From: a virus
IMG/VR virus record: IMGVR_UViG_3300024332_000004
Span: 1 to 35,869 of that record
Reading direction: 5' to 3' (one strand)
Length of the DNA: 35,869 nucleotides
The first letter of the stretch is position 1, and each line of letters starts with the position of its first letter. The notes below the pieces were generated by a model, which was not told the DNA's origin, did not search any database, and was given only the letters and a program-made list of their open reading frames with translations. The translations under genes and the position numbers were made by a program. Shown here one piece after another: positions 1 through 27,157 of this stretch.

Positions 1-155
1 TGTTGGAGGACTTCAGAGACTAGACCAGAAAGTCTTTAACAAATTTGCTCAACTGGTATCATAAGCAAACCAACCAATCGCTAATGCCTTGCACAGAAAT
101 GTGCGAGGTTTTGGTGGTAAAGGGCATTATTGCCACATTATTTAAACTATATAAT
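1..155 (+). other. Structured non-coding leader, possible small RNA
   Basis: No convincing coding frame covers this left-edge stretch; an open frame runs through it, but the real start downstream is better placed at 156. Several stems can be drawn. GTTGG (2-6) pairs with CCAAC (70-74) and encloses AGACT/AGTCT (17-21/31-35) and TTTGCT/AGCAAA (44-49/64-69). A 9-bp stem with one wobble (82-90/121-129) encloses a perfect GCACA-GAAA-TGTGC hairpin (91-104) stacked directly on it, plus a 16-nt G/T-rich single strand (105-120). GGCA/TGCC (123-126/131-134) is an alternative 3' hairpin just before the ATTTAAAC element. I could not fit a tRNA cloverleaf, and there is no GTTCGA T-loop. It may be a structured 5' leader or a small RNA. 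Confidence 0.35.
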
Positions 156-158
156 ATG
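140..158 (+). promoter_or_regulatory. 19-nt start-codon element, copy 1
   Basis: The sequence ATTTAAACTATATAATATG ends in the ATG at 156-158. Identical 19-mers end in the start codons at 420 and 1241, and near copies at 1865 and 2185. Because the TATAAT-like string touches the ATG, it cannot be a -10 box for the gene it precedes. It is more likely a translation-start or RNA-level signal. Phages and hosts of the Bacteroidota commonly initiate without Shine-Dalgarno sequences, using A-rich leaders. Confidence 0.6.
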
Positions 159-404
159 TTAACACTTAGAAAATTTTACCAGAAAACCTACCCAACAGAT
201 GAATTGGGACAACACATCAATTTAACGACTTTTGTAGCATTAATAGATTGCTTACATAGAGGTGGTGATGTTTACCAATACATTGGTGTACACGACAGCC
301 TAGTTAGAGAAAGACTATTTGAAGAACTAGCAAAAATGTTAGGCTCTAATTACGACTACATTTACGATTTATGGATGCAAGGTCTTTACACAACTAATCA
401 TTAA
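156..404 (+). CDS. Hypothetical early protein, 82 aa
   Basis: This is an uncharacterised protein, the first of the early + strand cluster. The open frame extends upstream to 45. I chose the ATG at 156 because it carries the 19-nt element shared with the genes at 420 and 1241, and because the upstream codons would merely translate that element and the structured leader. The product is a soluble-looking, probably helical polypeptide with an aromatic, acidic C-terminal third (YDYIYDLWMQ) and no signal peptide or membrane segment. Its stop codon is followed at once by the next copy of the element, so genes and leaders are packed with almost no spare sequence. I recognise no family. Its early position suggests a role in host interaction, which is inference only. 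Confidence 0.6.
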   Translation: MLTLRKFYQKTYPTDELGQHINLTTFVALIDCLHRGGDVYQYIGVHDSLVRERLFEELAKMLGSNYDYIYDLWMQGLYTTNH

Positions 405-422
405 TTTAAACTATATAATATG
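404..422 (+). promoter_or_regulatory. 19-nt start-codon element, copy 2
   Basis: An identical copy of ATTTAAACTATATAATATG begins on the last base of the preceding stop codon and ends in the ATG at 420. The whole intergenic gap consists of this element, so it must work without any extra leader sequence. Confidence 0.65.
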
Positions 423-1124
423 TATTTAAAAAAAGCACTAAACGGAATTAACGTACAACTATTGAACTCGCTAGAATATGGCGATGAAATTCAATTAAAT
501 GATCTATACTCTTTATATCATTATTCAGAAGATGATTGTGTAGTAGTAAACAGAACAGATGATTGGACGGAACTGGTTCAAGTCCTATGGGACGAAGATG
601 ACAACAGCATTTTGTTTGAGGTAATAGACAATGACCAGTATCATATTGAGATAGGTAAACCATACAAGGACGAGAGTCATGAAAATGGTCTAAAATACTA
701 TGACAACTTAGAGGCTGTAAAAGTCATAGAGGAATGCTTCAAAACAGATGATGATATGCAAGTACATCATCCAGACTTTCACTCGTATAAAGATGAGGAT
801 ATATTGGAACTTGGTAGTAAGTGGTATGGTATACATCACATAGGTAATCTTAATATAAATAGACTAGGCAATTTAGAGGTCACCCCAGATTACGAATCTA
901 AGTACAAGTCTTTAAAACTTCAATTTACCCAGTTATTCAAATACATGGAGGAGAACACAACATATCTCTGGAGAGATGATTTAGAATGCACTCATGAATG
1001 TGTTGTTCTGGAGGATGTTGAAGATGGTGTAAAGATGGATGAATGTGACGAGCCTACAATGGCTTGTACTGGTAGCAATGTAGTTACTATGATAGAGGAG
1101 ATTAAAAAAACACACTTAGCATAG
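420..1124 (+). CDS. Acidic hypothetical early protein, 234 aa
   Basis: This is an uncharacterised, strongly acidic protein. By eye about 51 of 234 residues are Asp or Glu against about 19 Lys or Arg, with acidic runs such as DEDD and DDD. The C-terminal part has spaced Cys and His residues (ECTHEC near 189-194, then further Cys), which could bind metal but match no pattern I can name. No membrane segment is visible. The start is supported by the 19-nt element touching the ATG. The gene lies directly upstream of the tRNA-Arg gene. Small acidic early phage proteins are sometimes DNA mimics that inhibit host nucleases or RNA polymerase. That is a possibility from composition and position only. 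Confidence 0.65.
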   Translation: MYLKKALNGINVQLLNSLEYGDEIQLNDLYSLYHYSEDDCVVVNRTDDWTELVQVLWDEDDNSILFEVIDNDQYHIEIGKPYKDESHENGLKYYDNLEAVKVIEECFKTDDDMQVHHPDFHSYKDEDILELGSKWYGIHHIGNLNINRLGNLEVTPDYESKYKSLKLQFTQLFKYMEENTTYLWRDDLECTHECVVLEDVEDGVKMDECDEPTMACTGSNVVTMIEEIKKTHLA

Positions 1125-1131
1125 GCTAGGA

Positions 1132-1205
1132 GGCTCAGTAGCACAACTGGATAGTGCAATACCCTTCTAAGGTATCGGTTATAGGTTCGAGTCCTATCTG
1201 AGTCA
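1132..1205 (+). tRNA. tRNA-Arg (anticodon UCU)
   Basis: A complete cloverleaf can be drawn. The acceptor GGCTCAG pairs with CTGAGTC (one G-U pair). The D stem is GCAC/GTGC and the anticodon stem ATACC/GGTAT, with loop CTTCTAA and anticodon TCT at 1166-1168. The variable loop is CGGTT, and the T arm is ATAGG-TTCGAGT-CCTAT. The discriminator is A and no CCA is encoded. It reads AGA, which is the prevalent arginine codon in the AT-rich phage genes here. It lies 7 nt after the acidic protein gene and is followed by a short hairpin, so it is probably processed from the early transcript. Confidence 0.95.
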
Positions 1206-1206
1206 C

Positions 1207-1224
1207 AAAGGCAATTAAGCCTTT
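1207..1224 (+). terminator. Short hairpin after tRNA (processing site or weak terminator)
   Basis: AAAGGC pairs with GCCTTT across the 6-nt loop AATTAA. It sits directly between the tRNA 3' end and the ATTTAAAC element of the next gene. Only a few T residues follow, so RNA processing or protection is as likely as termination. Similar stems precede the ATTTAAA string near 123-134 and 7083-7159. Confidence 0.45.
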
Positions 1225-1243
1225 ATTTAAACTATATAATATG
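1225..1243 (+). promoter_or_regulatory. 19-nt start-codon element, copy 3
   Basis: An identical copy of ATTTAAACTATATAATATG runs from the hairpin after the tRNA to the ATG at 1241. Confidence 0.65.
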
Positions 1244-1582
1244 AAACAGATTACCAGAAAAAAAGACATCCCATTAAATTTGGAGTCCAGAGAATGTACA
1301 ATCTATGAAGTAAAACACATCTGGCATCAGCCGTCAGACCGATGGATATACATTGAAAAACACGAAAATGGTCGGCTACTTCTAAACTTTATGCAAGGTG
1401 ATGACTATAAACTATTCAAGGAAGAATACTGCTGTGAGGATCATGCGTTAAGTAATTTTTATTATGAAATGATCCAAGACAAAATTATTTATTATGAAAT
1501 CAAAGAATTTGAAGACATCGAATTGATAGACAAAATCATATGGATATTCTACAAGGCAAAAGCAAGTATTTTTAATTCCTAA
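1241..1582 (+). CDS. Hypothetical early protein, 113 aa
   Basis: This is an uncharacterised soluble protein, first gene after the tRNA. The start is fixed by the 19-nt element touching the ATG. The N-terminal part alternates charged and hydrophobic residues in a strand-like way (TIYEVKHIWHQ, DRWIYIEKHENGRLLLNFM). The second half is rich in Glu, Asp, Ile and Tyr and probably helical. There is no signal peptide, membrane segment or catalytic motif that I can name. The next gene follows after an 11-nt gap carrying a degenerate version of the element (AAAACCATACAACATG). Role unknown. Confidence 0.65.
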   Translation: MKQITRKKDIPLNLESRECTIYEVKHIWHQPSDRWIYIEKHENGRLLLNFMQGDDYKLFKEEYCCEDHALSNFYYEMIQDKIIYYEIKEFEDIELIDKIIWIFYKAKASIFNS

Positions 1583-1593
1583 AACCATACAAC

Positions 1594-1875
1594 ATGAAAA
1601 GCAATAAACTTATAGCAGAATTTATGGGGTACGAGGTAAATCATAACAAATGCTACTCACCTAAATACAATGATGGTACGATTGCACCAATGCAATTTCA
1701 CAAATCTTGGGATTGGCTTATGCCAGTAGTAAAGAAGATTGAAGATTATTTAAGTGATAATGTAGGTAAAGTAGGGTACTTTGATGAATGTCTAAGCAGT
1801 AACGATTTAAACACAAGATACCAAGCAGTAGTAGAATTTATTAAAAACTTAAAAACTATACAATATGAAAATTGA
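1594..1875 (+). CDS. Hypothetical protein of a recurrent phage family, 93 aa
   Basis: The start (KLIAEFMGYEV), a central HKSWDWLMPVVKKIEDY segment (about 36-52) and an AVVEFIKNL end form a pattern I associate with a small uncharacterised protein common in phages of flavobacteria. No biochemical role is known to me. The protein is probably globular and alpha-helical, with no membrane segment. The ATG follows a degenerate form of the start element. Its end overlaps the next start by 11 nt, and that next start carries a better copy of the element inside this reading frame, encoding the KTIQYEN tail. Family recognition is from memory and should be treated as tentative. Confidence 0.7.
   Translation: MKSNKLIAEFMGYEVNHNKCYSPKYNDGTIAPMQFHKSWDWLMPVVKKIEDYLSDNVGKVGYFDECLSSNDLNTRYQAVVEFIKNLKTIQYEN
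1852..1867 (+). promoter_or_regulatory. Start-codon element variant inside upstream gene
   Basis: AAAACTATACAATATG differs from the core AAACTATATAATATG by one base. It lies within the coding sequence of the preceding gene and ends in the ATG at 1865. Its retention inside a coding region suggests it is selected for at the nucleotide level. Confidence 0.5.
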
Positions 1876-2173
1876 CGAAAGAGAAATACACAACATAATA
1901 TTGATTCATGTTGCCAGAACTTGGGAAAGAATAAGGTTAGAACAACCTCATCAAGAAATGCCATCTGATAACATAGAAAGTGCAAATTCTGTGATCCCAG
2001 AAATAGCATATGTTATTTACAAAACAAAAGTGATCCAGAAACTGATTAATTACGATAAGGATGATTGGAACTGGAGAACGATGACAAATGGATATGCTGA
2101 TTTTTCAGATACTTACATTGAGCAATATGCTCATGAGATAATACATGACCACTATTTAGGAACTCACAATTAA
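1865..2173 (+). CDS. Hypothetical early protein, 102 aa
   Basis: This is an uncharacterised protein that starts 11 nt inside the preceding gene, with the start element directly before its ATG. It is probably all-helical. An N-terminal amphipathic stretch (IHNIILIHVARTWERI) is followed by a central hydrophobic helix (VIPEIAYVIYKTKVIQKLI) and an acidic, His-rich C-terminal part (YEQYAHEIIHDHY-like). No membrane segment or enzyme motif was recognised. The next gene follows after 11 nt that consist of another copy of the start element. Role unknown. Confidence 0.65.
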   Translation: MKIDEREIHNIILIHVARTWERIRLEQPHQEMPSDNIESANSVIPEIAYVIYKTKVIQKLINYDKDDWNWRTMTNGYADFSDTYIEQYAHEIIHDHYLGTHN

Positions 2174-2187
2174 AACTATATAATATG
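2168..2187 (+). promoter_or_regulatory. Start-codon element, copy 4
   Basis: AATTAAAACTATATAATATG contains the full AAACTATATAATATG core and ends in the ATG at 2185. The preceding stop codon lies inside the element. Confidence 0.6.
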
Positions 2188-2730
2188 AAAACAAATTTAG
2201 AGGGTAGATATACATCTACTTATGGTTTCGTTGCAAAAAACGACCTAGAAAAACAAGCAGAAACAACATTTGGTAAAGACTGGGAAGCAGAATCAGATGT
2301 AGAACAAATTCAAGAACTCTGTGATATCATCTATAAGGGAAGATATCTTGTAGATTGTATTGATACCAGAGGTGATGAAGATATTGTAGTAAGAGAGGTT
2401 GATAACTGGGAGGCTTTTATACGACTTGCCACAGATTTAGAATGTGCAAGAATAGAAAATGAAAGACTACAAGACTTGTCCAATGCTCAACACTTAAAAG
2501 ATATTTCATCTGACTTACTAAAAGAAGAACTTGAAAAACGAGGCTATTGTACTAATAATTTATGGGGTACATGGGATGTTCAACAAACTTATGTTTGTGA
2601 CGATGATCAAGCGATGGAAGTTTTAGAAACGGTATTACAAAATGAATACATAGTAAGCCAAACATTTGAGGCTATAGATATGTGGATTGAATGTAATGCA
2701 GAACAAGGAGAGTTTAAAACTAAAGATTAA
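2185..2730 (+). CDS. Acidic hypothetical early protein, 181 aa
   Basis: This is an uncharacterised acidic protein with many Glu and Asp and few basic residues. The middle (about 85-120: WEAFIRLATDLECARIENE and on) looks helical and possibly coiled. Five Cys are spread along the chain without a clear zinc-site pattern. No membrane segment is visible. The start is supported by the start element. The last base of the stop codon is the first base of the next ATG (TAATG), a sign of translational coupling. With the 234-aa gene it is the other large acidic protein of the early cluster. A host-takeover or anti-defence role is possible but unproven. Confidence 0.65.
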   Translation: MKTNLEGRYTSTYGFVAKNDLEKQAETTFGKDWEAESDVEQIQELCDIIYKGRYLVDCIDTRGDEDIVVREVDNWEAFIRLATDLECARIENERLQDLSNAQHLKDISSDLLKEELEKRGYCTNNLWGTWDVQQTYVCDDDQAMEVLETVLQNEYIVSQTFEAIDMWIECNAEQGEFKTKD

Positions 2731-4937: not shown

Positions 4938-4954
4938 CCTTAAATAAACTATAT

Positions 4955-5182
4955 ATGAAAACTCATACTTTATACAAACGAAGAGCCAGAAGACTTTTAC
5001 AACTACAAGGAATAACGCACACAGATGTATGTGAGTATGTTTATGGATCTAAAACTAAAAAAAGTAAACTATGTCAAAAGATTCAAGGAAAAACAGAATT
5101 GTTTTTTAATGAGTCCAGTAAAATAATAGAATACTACGGAGTTTTAGCACAAGAAATAGATGATATAATTACTGAAAGGTAG
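4955..5182 (+). CDS. Possible HTH DNA-binding protein, 75 aa
   Basis: This is a small basic protein just upstream of the integrase. The arrangement RRLLQLQGITHTDVCEYVYG (about 12-31), a basic linker and a second helix ending EYYGV is reminiscent of Cro/XRE-type helix-turn-helix proteins that phages use as switches, but key positions are not clear enough for a firm call. An AAACTATATATG leader, a shortened form of the early start element, precedes the ATG. Candidates are a Cro-like regulator, an excisionase-like factor or an unrelated small protein. Confidence 0.55.
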   Translation: MKTHTLYKRRARRLLQLQGITHTDVCEYVYGSKTKKSKLCQKIQGKTELFFNESSKIIEYYGVLAQEIDDIITER

Positions 5183-11149: not shown

Positions 11150-11423
11150 ATTACAAATATTACATAGAACCGAATGGGAAACCAATAAATGGGGAGGTAA
11201 AATAGGAAAATCAAAGCCATACGAGAAAGGTGAAGACTTAGTAAGATTAGCAGAACTAAATGAAATAGTTCCAGGAATTGAAAAGTATTACATAAGACCA
11301 AATGGAATGGGACATGACTATTATTTACTATATAAAGGCTTTCATAAAACTGTGGAATATTCTGGAATAAAAAGTATGGTAAATGCAAACAGCATTTATG
11401 TAAATAAAGATTTTAAACTATAA
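11139..11423 (+). CDS. Hypothetical protein, 94 aa
   Basis: This is an uncharacterised basic protein in the replication operon. The frame is open upstream to 11076, but the earlier codons lie inside the primase-helicase gene. I prefer the ATG at 11139 with its A-rich leader (CAAAATTCA), which overlaps the helicase stop by 11 nt; 11115 and 11118 are alternatives. The chain includes a Gly/Lys-rich turn (KWGGKIGKSKPYEKGED), a short helix (LVRLAELNEIV) and aromatic strands (KYYIRPNG, HDYYLLYKGFHKTVEYSG). No motif was recognised. The next start carries a shortened form of the AT-rich start element. Confidence 0.55.
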   Translation: MDNKLQILHRTEWETNKWGGKIGKSKPYEKGEDLVRLAELNEIVPGIEKYYIRPNGMGHDYYLLYKGFHKTVEYSGIKSMVNANSIYVNKDFKL

Positions 11424-11424
11424 T

Positions 11425-11772
11425 ATGGCAAACACAAATAGGAATAAAGGACACAATTATGAGAGACAACTAGTAAAAGATTTTAAAAAACTAGGCTTTA
11501 CAGATTGTGTAACCTCAAGGTATGGATCTAAAATGTTAGATGACCAGGGAATTGATTTAATGAATACAGGAGATTTTGCAGTACAGGCAAAGTGCTACAA
11601 GAGAAATCCCCAATACAAAAAAGTATTAGCAGACATGGTAGTCAAACCCACAGATGTTCCTATTGTGTTTCATAAAGCACCAGGTGGTAAAGAGTATTGT
11701 ATATTGTATAAAGAAGATATGATGGAGTTAATAGAGATGCTTATAAAAAATCAAATTATTAATACACCTTAA
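11425..11772 (+). CDS. PD-(D/E)XK nuclease, Holliday-junction-resolvase-like, 115 aa
   Basis: This is likely a small nuclease that resolves branched DNA formed during recombination or replication. It has the layout of archaeal-Hjc/VRR-type nucleases: NKGHNYERQLVKDFKKLGF with E13, then TSRYGS, D44 in QGIDLM, and Q54-A-K56 in the FAVQAKCYK strand, so the set E13/D44/Q54/K56 is in place with glutamine where many members have glutamate. C-terminal strands and a helix complete the fold. The length is typical. The ATG follows AAACTATAATATG, two bases shorter than the early start element. The neighbours are replication genes, consistent with this role. Exact substrate unknown. Confidence 0.72.
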   Translation: MANTNRNKGHNYERQLVKDFKKLGFTDCVTSRYGSKMLDDQGIDLMNTGDFAVQAKCYKRNPQYKKVLADMVVKPTDVPIVFHKAPGGKEYCILYKEDMMELIEMLIKNQIINTP

Positions 11773-25711: not shown

Positions 25712-27157
25712 TTAGGTTGTATGTCCTTTACTTGTTATATATCCTATATTAGAATGTTTCACTTCTAAATCCTTATCAGTAAAAGTCATCCCAACTTTTA
25801 TGTATTGTCCTCTCAGTTTAGTACCTCTTCTTAGTTTGTCACCGTAAGTAGCATTATCACTTACGTTAGGATCATTAACATCCCCAAACATTTCAGAGTA
25901 ATATGTACCCTCTCTTCTAATATAATCCTCTCTCACTAAGTCCGAGTTCATAATCCAACTCTCTTCAGTTTGTAATGTTGTATAGTTTGGTTTAGTGTTG
26001 CCTTCTACTGCATGATTCATATACACTTTTGGCTGACTTGGACTTACGTTTTCGATATATGTAACTTTCGTTGGGTAATATCCACCGTAAAAATAATTTT
26101 TATTTACCGTATCATCATGAATAAATAGGTCTCCGTTTGTAAAGGTAGCGATTCCTGTCTTAAAAGTTGTCATGTATTCAGGAATGTAAGAGTATCTAGA
26201 AACCCATCTTTTTGAGTTGTCACTCCAGGCTAAAGTTGTTTTAGATCCTGCTTGTATTTCAGTTATTAATTCATTCTCTTTTTTAAATATTCTAACATTA
26301 GTAACCCAAGCGTATTCTTGAGTATTACTATTAGAAAAATCAAATTTTATTTCAGGACTTTGCCTATCTAATTCTGTTATAGTATGCTCTATAAAATTTG
26401 TATATGCATTCGGTAAGTTATTTTGAGAAAATATATTTGTTCCTTGAGCACCAAAGTTTATATCTAAATCTGTTTTAGGAGCAGGGTATTCAGATTCGGC
26501 CTCTACTACCTTATAAACTATTCCTCCTCCAAAAATATCTCCAACAGAAACACTTACAGTCGGATCTACAACTTGTTCTCTAAATGCTCTAGTTCTAAAC
26601 CTGTAAGATTTTGGTCGCCCAAATCCTCCACCACCACCAGAATTTGGATTGAAAGACATTGAGAAAACTGGACTTGGGTTTGTGGGATTTTGAGATTCAG
26701 TAGACATCCAGTAACCCTTTTGTTGATAATGAGTTTGAGTCTTCCTAAGTTTTTTGCCACCATTTGATAAAATTATAGGATCTAAAACATCCATCAAATG
26801 ATACACTCTTCCTAATTGACCAAGGCTTGGTAAATACCAATCATCATATGTAACACCAGATACCACTCTAACTACATCTGTTACTAGTTGTGCTGCTGAG
26901 TCTGTATGACCTGTCTGATTTATAATGTTTTGTGTATTTATTTTCCCACTCCAATTATTACAAGTTCCTATATTTTCATTAACATTACTCCATCTTGGTA
27001 GTTCTCCATTTGGATTACTTTCAATATCCTGCATTTCTTGCAAATCAACTATGTATACAGTTTTGTCTGAACCTAAAGGTGCATTGTTTTGAATATCAAA
27101 AACTATTTTGATTTCATCACCTACTTGAAAATTTGTATTTAAACTAAAGTCACTCAT
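25712..27157 (-). CDS. Tail protein: DUF1566 lectin-like domain plus nozzle-type C-terminus, 481 aa
   Basis: Residues about 60-200 resemble the DUF1566 domain (C-type-lectin-like): CNNWSGK, DDWYLPSLGQL (105-115), KGYWMSTE (148-154), a Gly-rich loop (174-178) and RFRTRAFRE (186-194). A VGDIFGGGIVYKV strand follows. The C-terminal half (about 240-481), with VYMNHAVEGN, WIMNSDLVREDYIRREGTYYSEMFGD and KLRRGTKLRGQYIKVGM, recalls the C-terminal part of nozzle/muzzle proteins of crAss-like podoviruses. It is likely at the tail tip and may bind the host surface. The first part of the presumed nozzle is encoded just upstream in the operon. The domain call is fairly good, the split-nozzle idea tentative. 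Confidence 0.6.
   Translation of the reverse strand: MSDFSLNTNFQVGDEIKIVFDIQNNAPLGSDKTVYIVDLQEMQDIESNPNGELPRWSNVNENIGTCNNWSGKINTQNIINQTGHTDSAAQLVTDVVRVVSGVTYDDWYLPSLGQLGRVYHLMDVLDPIILSNGGKKLRKTQTHYQQKGYWMSTESQNPTNPSPVFSMSFNPNSGGGGGFGRPKSYRFRTRAFREQVVDPTVSVSVGDIFGGGIVYKVVEAESEYPAPKTDLDINFGAQGTNIFSQNNLPNAYTNFIEHTITELDRQSPEIKFDFSNSNTQEYAWVTNVRIFKKENELITEIQAGSKTTLAWSDNSKRWVSRYSYIPEYMTTFKTGIATFTNGDLFIHDDTVNKNYFYGGYYPTKVTYIENVSPSQPKVYMNHAVEGNTKPNYTTLQTEESWIMNSDLVREDYIRREGTYYSEMFGDVNDPNVSDNATYGDKLRRGTKLRGQYIKVGMTFTDKDLEVKHSNIGYITSKGHTT

Follow-up and report, generated by a model that had tools for sequence, protein, structure and literature searches.

Why do so many unrelated early genes of one phage group open with the same short sequence, start codon included? 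The question is raised by IMG/VR virus record IMGVR_UViG_3300024332_000004, whose 35,869 bases were analysed whole (hereafter the window), and by an AT-rich element whose 19-nucleotide (nt) form, ATTTAAACTATATAATATG, occurs three times exactly and once with one mismatch in its first 2.2 kb (Table 1). Evaluating these copies together with those in 64 metagenomic loci of relatives, which were picked up via the primase-helicase and are cited by their L numbers where needed, we read AAACTATATAAT-ATG as probably this lineage's start-associated sequence, a translation-initiation tag that doubles as a joint between gene cassettes. The location of the element, its anchoring on starts, its strand, its restriction to one lineage, the stop registers it shares and the exchange breakpoints found at it are directly supported.

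Allowing up to three mismatches to the 19-mer, the window yielded four matches, all on the plus strand, against a mean of 0.14 in shuffles. An initial annotation had listed identical copies on the ATGs at 156, 420 and 1241, near copies at 2185 and 1865, and shortened forms at 4955 and 11425, and every one of these was recovered, the shortened forms being real yet weaker (the gene family of window 4955-5182 carries near-full element forms in L202, L209 and L075). Its further statement that the element fills intergenic gaps is true at starts 420 and 2185, where the gap is wholly occupied (at copy 2, a gap of 15 nt, with the last base of the upstream stop codon overlapped as well). So is its statement that the element is kept inside an upstream coding region: the copy at start 1865 lies within open reading frame (ORF) 1594-1875, which runs into the next gene, 11 nt beyond its start, because a T-to-C change at -4 destroys the TAA internal to that copy.

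Across the pooled non-redundant early loci, the conserved unit proved to be a 12-nt core, AAACTATATAAT, plus ATG, preceded by a 5' part that varies (ATTT in some copies, TTAA in others). The early strand holds 39 exact 12-mers, each of them before an ATG, with no copy at any other place; the opposite strand has no copy at all, and the pattern read backwards gave few matches at most. Counting 12-mers before ATG by number of mismatches (0, 1, 2, 3 and 4) gave 39, 15, 9, 29 and 65 cases, a bimodal histogram which argues that the element forms a class of its own, not just the extreme of a compositional bias, and which together with the shuffles rules out chance or plain AT-richness. Single relatives carry up to 12 copies, and five Bacteroidota genomes held no exact copy. 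Over 62 joints, A-12, A-11, C-9, A-7 and A-3 are invariant, A-10, T-8, T-6 and A-5 are almost invariant, and about 90% keep T-4 and T-1; T stands at -6 in 95% of joints and A at -13 in 68%. The initial annotation held that spacing to the ATG is always zero, which applies to the window copies and fails in relatives L202 and L204, which read AAACTATACAAT-ATT-ATG. It also took the element to be phage-specific, and lineage-specific and seated on start codons it is; absence from the same starts in relatives, which it had named as the observation that would tell against its proposal, is found for the exact element in more distant relatives, several of which have ATTTAAACTGAAAAC(T/A)-ATG, a sister form, on the homologous starts.

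The 78 distinct element joints lie in front of 39 protein clusters and behind 43 upstream clusters, a variety that rules out gene duplication carrying the leader along. The genes so marked code for proteins that are mostly small and without known function (for the six-gene block at 156..2730, Pfam gave nothing above its cut-off). The copies themselves sit in a hypervariable block flanked on one side by a DUF932 gene (in relatives) and on the other by the gene at window 2971. Beyond that block, the conserved integrase, exonuclease and primase-helicase genes are largely free of the element and the late minus-strand genes have none; it is a feature of the early block. Two distances from upstream stop to ATG prevail, 11 nt in 21 cases and 1 nt in 16. 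In the 1-nt register the element reads AAA-ACT-ATA-TAA and itself supplies the last upstream codons and the stop, which is why 14 of the 16 upstream proteins end in -KTI (one more ends in -QTI), with 14 different tails. Several unrelated element genes in L206, L210, L075, L204 and L200 begin ATG-NNA-CAG-AAT, common first codons that look as if the repeated unit had reached into coding sequence in one sublineage.

Could the element then be merely a common Bacteroidota-phage leader, homogenised by cassette recombination and functioning as an ordinary A-rich leader? Related leaders do exist elsewhere (ATTTAAACTGAAAACT-ATG; AAATTATATACT-ATG in L016 and L043; AAACTAAACAAC-ATG in Cellulophaga phage phi10:1). 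Two host-like genomes lack such a word at their starts, however, within these phages the core genes manage without the element, and it is kept despite fixing the last residues of upstream proteins; we consider this explanation improbable. The element is thus the form that a more widespread AAACT leader takes in one lineage, where the exchanges themselves have perhaps made it uniform.

As separate observations on repeated leaders, L016, L024, L041 and L043 (contigs mostly >100 kb) possess a start leader of their own, AAATTATATACT-ATG, in up to 7 copies at no more than 2 mismatches, and cultured phi10:1 (L213) has 6 start leaders within 2 mismatches of AAACTAAACAAC, which makes it a possible laboratory model for such elements. 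A palindrome-like sequence that resembles the element and is not at a start, AAACTATATAGTCTTATATAG, lies upstream of the early block (L200, 8477 region; L202, flipped, 280). The literature searched yielded no described start motif in Bacteroidota phages.

Beyond what the initial annotation had read into it, the element is the exact joint at which early gene cassettes are swapped between phages. Among relatives, sequences switch at the element in both directions, one upstream sequence being followed by different genes and one gene being preceded by different upstream sequences: where two sequences share the upstream side, identity is 91-96% as far as the ATG and 31-36% past codon 4, and where they share the gene, it is 30-39% on the upstream side and 94% in the element. 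In the window, the match with L200, L202 and L204 breaks off exactly at position 158 and that with L044 (98%) exactly at 422, positions 1580-1867 form a cassette that is 97% identical in L203 from joint to joint, and identity to L050 (100%) and L200 (79%) starts exactly at 2169; at the joint equivalent to 1582..1596, L046 and L054 read AAACTATACAAT but have a different gene behind it. Over the blocks, right ends of homology fall on element joints in 38 of 96 cases (21 times expectation) and left ends in 24 of 84 (12 times), factors that are upper estimates, since alignments run through the shared element and inflate them somewhat. Non-element starts gave factors of 5 (right) and 4 (left) in the same test, so that the contrast is clear. 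Next-gene variety did not separate element from non-element junctions (35/39 versus 79/96), a count that is uninformative because relatives without the element also shuffle, and the breakpoint test was used in its place.

Because every cassette starts with the same tag, we take the tag to be the exchange joint, one at which phage recombination would preserve frame, stop and start together, and we infer that it guides recombination itself, beyond just surviving exchanges; that the phage encodes a RecE-like/YqaJ exonuclease counts in favour of the reading as a whole. A DNA site, whether a stoperator-like repressor site or a site-specific recombination core, with the start-codon position as a by-product, would likewise fit the many copies in a single orientation and the cassette exchanges that break at element edges, and L200 has the palindrome CTATATA-N4-TATATAG upstream of its early block. 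We nevertheless hold a DNA site to be very unlikely: it would not require each exact copy to be tied to an ATG, as all are with none free, the adjacency to ATG is kept in length variants, and the one integrase is of the ordinary tyrosine type.

What might the element do on the RNA? Most mRNAs of Bacteroidota carry no Shine-Dalgarno signal, which raises the question of how strong starts are recognised by their ribosomes. We infer that the element is active in translation: as RNA it would occupy the stretch of each early gene on which ribosomes land and would most likely serve as a strong initiation tag without Shine-Dalgarno pairing, and at tight joints, where the tag carries the upstream stop, translation could be coupled. 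Initiation is favoured because of this landing-zone position, the anchoring on ATG through length variants, and the presence of A-3 and A-12: in Flavobacterium johnsoniae, A at -3, -12 and -13 are positive determinants of translation (PMC6847099), and the element has A-3 and A-12, plus A-13 in its TTAAAAC form. Of the three roles that the initial annotation had offered (translation-start signal, RNA-processing site, protein-binding site), the first is the best, and its remark that the identity is far longer than in a generic A-rich leader is supported.

Several points weigh against an initiation tag, in addition to the inflated breakpoint factors. Element starts are unpaired to 0.61 compared with 0.60 for core starts of the same phages, no advantage in accessibility, and unusual openness of the start region was rejected on this ground. 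At -6 the element has T, not A. Complementarity to one Flavobacteriaceae 16S reaches 7 nt Watson-Crick, or 11 with wobble, both within the shuffled range, and 16S pairing was rejected as no better than shuffles for this single 16S, which has an unusual 3' tail. Finally, the element marks some early genes and not others, and the core replication genes lack it, so that the phage can translate without it. The 16S rRNA gene of Flavobacteriaceae bacterium Ap0902 (L212) ends in GGAACATCTCTTTT, and its anti-Shine-Dalgarno core looks altered.

Because the identity exceeds the Flavobacterium determinants and neither 16S pairing nor openness explains it, a dedicated reader is possible, for example a phage RNA-binding protein. 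Taken further, the element could be an operator at which an RNA-binding regulator made by the phage covers early start codons and shuts the genes off together, as T4 RegA does, or the target of a T4 RegB-type nuclease. Identity far beyond the ribosome's need, including invariant C-9 and T-8, would suit such an operator, as would a sequence that is A+U-rich, includes the AUG and marks early genes only, as in RegA sites (PMC3014915), yet T4 RegA sites lack tight sequence conservation and the copies here are near identical, and neither Pfam nor PHROGs gave a candidate regulator among the early proteins searched. We regard a regulator's operator as unlikely, and it is compatible with an initiation tag, neither excluding the other.

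The element also contains TATAAT and ACTATA, which we take to resemble -10 and single-subunit polymerase motifs, and these would speak for a promoter at which a phage polymerase or a modified host polymerase begins transcripts, either where the gene starts or shortly within it. A -10 box ending at -1, however, would put the transcription start inside the touched gene, and the element is anchored on ATG with no variable distance, and sits among tightly packed genes and within upstream coding sequence. No RNA polymerase gene turned up among the proteins searched, although the 2815-amino-acid (aa) protein matched nothing. The host -7 box, TAHHTTTG, was at 0 of the 78 joints within 80 nt, in line with the initial annotation's view that the element cannot be a -10 box for the gene it touches; the usual host promoter appears unlikely and was dropped as a candidate, and we give a phage-specific promoter within the element only a slight chance.

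Upstream of the element, the non-coding leaders of this phage group hold four recurrent kinds of RNA-like module, namely tRNA-Arg(TCT), tRNA-like minihelices, a GNRA hairpin and hammerhead ribozymes, and a small hairpin is present on 13 of 25 such leaders (0.14 in shuffles). The minihelices consist of acceptor stem and T arm only, with their two 5' strands 9-12 nt apart rather than 42, and lie directly 5' of small hairpin and start element; they went undetected by ARAGORN and by Rfam, which at gathering score returned tRNA only. Hammerhead cores (11 distinct) were found in relatives only, none in the window, all in sense orientation and shortly upstream of early starts, with 0 in a reversed-sequence control; two score weakly in Rfam, below gathering score, and stems II and III vary with pairing retained. 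A consensus of 6 GNRA hairpin sequences has 2 pairs changed on both sides and is conserved in sequence, and the hairpin at 77..118 is a possible RNA-processing module. The GNRA hairpin also occurs in L044 (twice), L045, L037 and L200, with a strongly conserved 3' arm, GCGAGGTTTTGGTGGTAAAG; it precedes the DUF932 gene and also the gene behind it.

These upstream modules suggest processed early mRNAs. Multiple hammerheads around prophage genes have been interpreted as transcript cutting (PMC3088659), and the early transcript of this phage group may similarly be cut immediately ahead of the tag; on non-coding upstream sides, such a cut would probably be brought about by the tRNA, minihelix, hammerhead or long hairpin, in many cases together with a small hairpin. 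The RNA-processing site of the initial annotation thereby gains candidate modules (tRNA, minihelix, hammerhead and GNRA hairpin), but they lie upstream of the element and not in it, and the element as processing site itself was rejected.

Table 1. Element copies and neighbouring features in the window, with RNA modules located in relatives (L numbers).
Feature	Position	Strand	Remarks
Element copy 1, ATTTAAACTATATAATATG	140..158	+	Exact 19-mer; ends in ATG of gene 156-404
Element copy 2, ATTTAAACTATATAATATG	404..422	+	Exact 19-mer; ends in ATG of gene 420-1124
Element copy 3, ATTTAAACTATATAATATG	1225..1243	+	Exact 19-mer; 3' of tRNA-Arg and small hairpin; ends in ATG of gene 1241-1582
Degenerate element, AAACCATACAAC-ATG	1582..1596	+	3 mismatches; start of gene 1594-1875
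Element core, AAACTATACAAT-ATG (15-nt AAACTATACAATATG)	1853..1867	+	Start of gene 1865-2173; inside upstream ORF 1594-1875
Element copy, ATTAAAACTATATAATATG	2169..2187	+	One mismatch; holds stop of gene 1865-2173; ends in ATG of gene 2185-2730
Shortened form, AAACTATAT-ATG	4946..4957	+	Gene 4955-5182
Shortened form, AAACTATAAT-ATG	11415..11427	+	Gene 11425-11772
Six element-bearing early genes	156..2730	+	Part of hypervariable cassette block (gene orders)
42-nt hairpin, GNRA tetraloop	77..118	+	Fold z-score -5.6; upstream of copy 1
Small hairpin, GGCATTATTGCC	123..134	+	Between long hairpin and copy 1
tRNA-Arg(TCT)	1132..1206	+	ARAGORN; Rfam RF00005, 66.4 bits; upstream of copy 3
Small hairpin, AAAGGCAATTAAGCCTTT	1207..1224	+	Between tRNA and copy 3
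Minihelices	L010 1865	-	
Minihelices	L036 4504, 5694; L037 8677, 9418, 10735; L045 2886; L096 159, 933, 2152; L107 29		
Minihelices	L203 4152	-	
Hammerheads	L022 783, 1006	-	
Hammerheads	L038 6252; L063 1458, 2916; L076 1784, 2167; L077 2931; L079 1444; L086 1889; L097 3332; L103 2884		

The window carries its small early genes, integrase, RecE-like/YqaJ exonuclease and primase-helicase on the plus strand in its left part and its late genes (amidase, holin, virion proteins and a crAss muzzle domain protein) on the minus strand. It belongs to a marine phage lineage, and because the nearest cellular and cultured-phage relatives (31-45% identity) are mostly Bacteroidota and their phages, we consider a host in Bacteroidota most likely; blastn of its first 8 kb against cultured phages gave tRNA matches only, and a cultured member of the lineage was not found. 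The protein with the crAss muzzle C-terminal domain (25712-27157, minus strand) adjoins very large virion proteins (2815 and 1740 aa), which suggests a distant link to crAss-like phages.

One 12-nt leader fixed on dozens of unrelated early genes is a natural, testable candidate for a strong start signal. A probable translation signal and a recombination joint coincide in one repeat, which would explain how swapped unrelated early genes work at once, and the element could help in finding new early phage proteins, a class in which counter-defence and takeover functions are frequent. More tentatively, and with some doubt on our part, the element might be a universal connector kept for this very purpose, with 12 nt that supply the last codons and stop of the upstream gene as well as the start signal of the downstream one and offer the phage's annealing recombinase a fixed joint, and with interchangeable RNA-cutting modules releasing each mRNA in front.

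Among known systems, the T4-type mobile regulatory cassettes of Arbiol et al. 2010, reportedly an early promoter plus a stem-loop placed between genes at shuffling joints, are similar in being a small repeat between early genes of a hyperplastic region where genes are exchanged and a stem-loop is present, whereas our repeat has no visible promoter (no host -7 box) and is fused to the start codon. The operators of T4 RegA are A+U-rich, unstructured and degenerate and overlap the AUG of many early genes (PMC3014915); the element is likewise A+U-rich and unstructured and lies over the AUG of many early genes, but its sites are near identical and no RegA-like protein was found by Pfam or PHROGs among the proteins searched. 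The Kozak-like leader of Flavobacterium is a weak base preference for A at -3, -6, -12 and -13 without Shine-Dalgarno (PMC6847099), and the element shares this lack and the A at -3 and -12 but has 12 fixed bases, including C-9, T-8 and T-6. As with the hammerheads that flank prophage genes (PMC3088659), those of the relatives stand just 5' of early genes, consistent with cutting into gene-length mRNAs, but here they alternate with tRNA, minihelices and hairpins before the same start tag, and in relatives only.

The closest known kind is the start-associated sequences (SAS) of Cluster K mycobacteriophages and their extended form (ESAS), many-copy repeats in one orientation beside the starts of non-structural genes from different families (PMC3203893, PMC12699233). 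The SAS, GGGATAGGAGCCC, has a Shine-Dalgarno core, lies 3-7 bp before the start, favours ATG and may include the upstream stop codon; it is absent from hosts and its function is unproven, and ESAS adds an upstream inverted repeat, of 17-bp repeats, on about half of the copies (PMC3203893, PMC12699233). The element is similarly a short asymmetric repeat in one orientation at the starts of unrelated genes (39 protein clusters, 0 on the other strand), marks non-structural genes only, is restricted to its lineage and has no copies in hosts. The small hairpins on 13 of 25 leaders are RNA-like in form, not the 17-bp repeats of ESAS. Unlike the SAS, AAACTATATAAT has no GGAG or Shine-Dalgarno and abuts or includes the ATG. 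Because sequence, spacing and Shine-Dalgarno core differ, we liken the element to the SAS in how it would work and do not count it as a member; what is new is a form without Shine-Dalgarno that includes the ATG, together with evidence that such a tag is an exchange joint.

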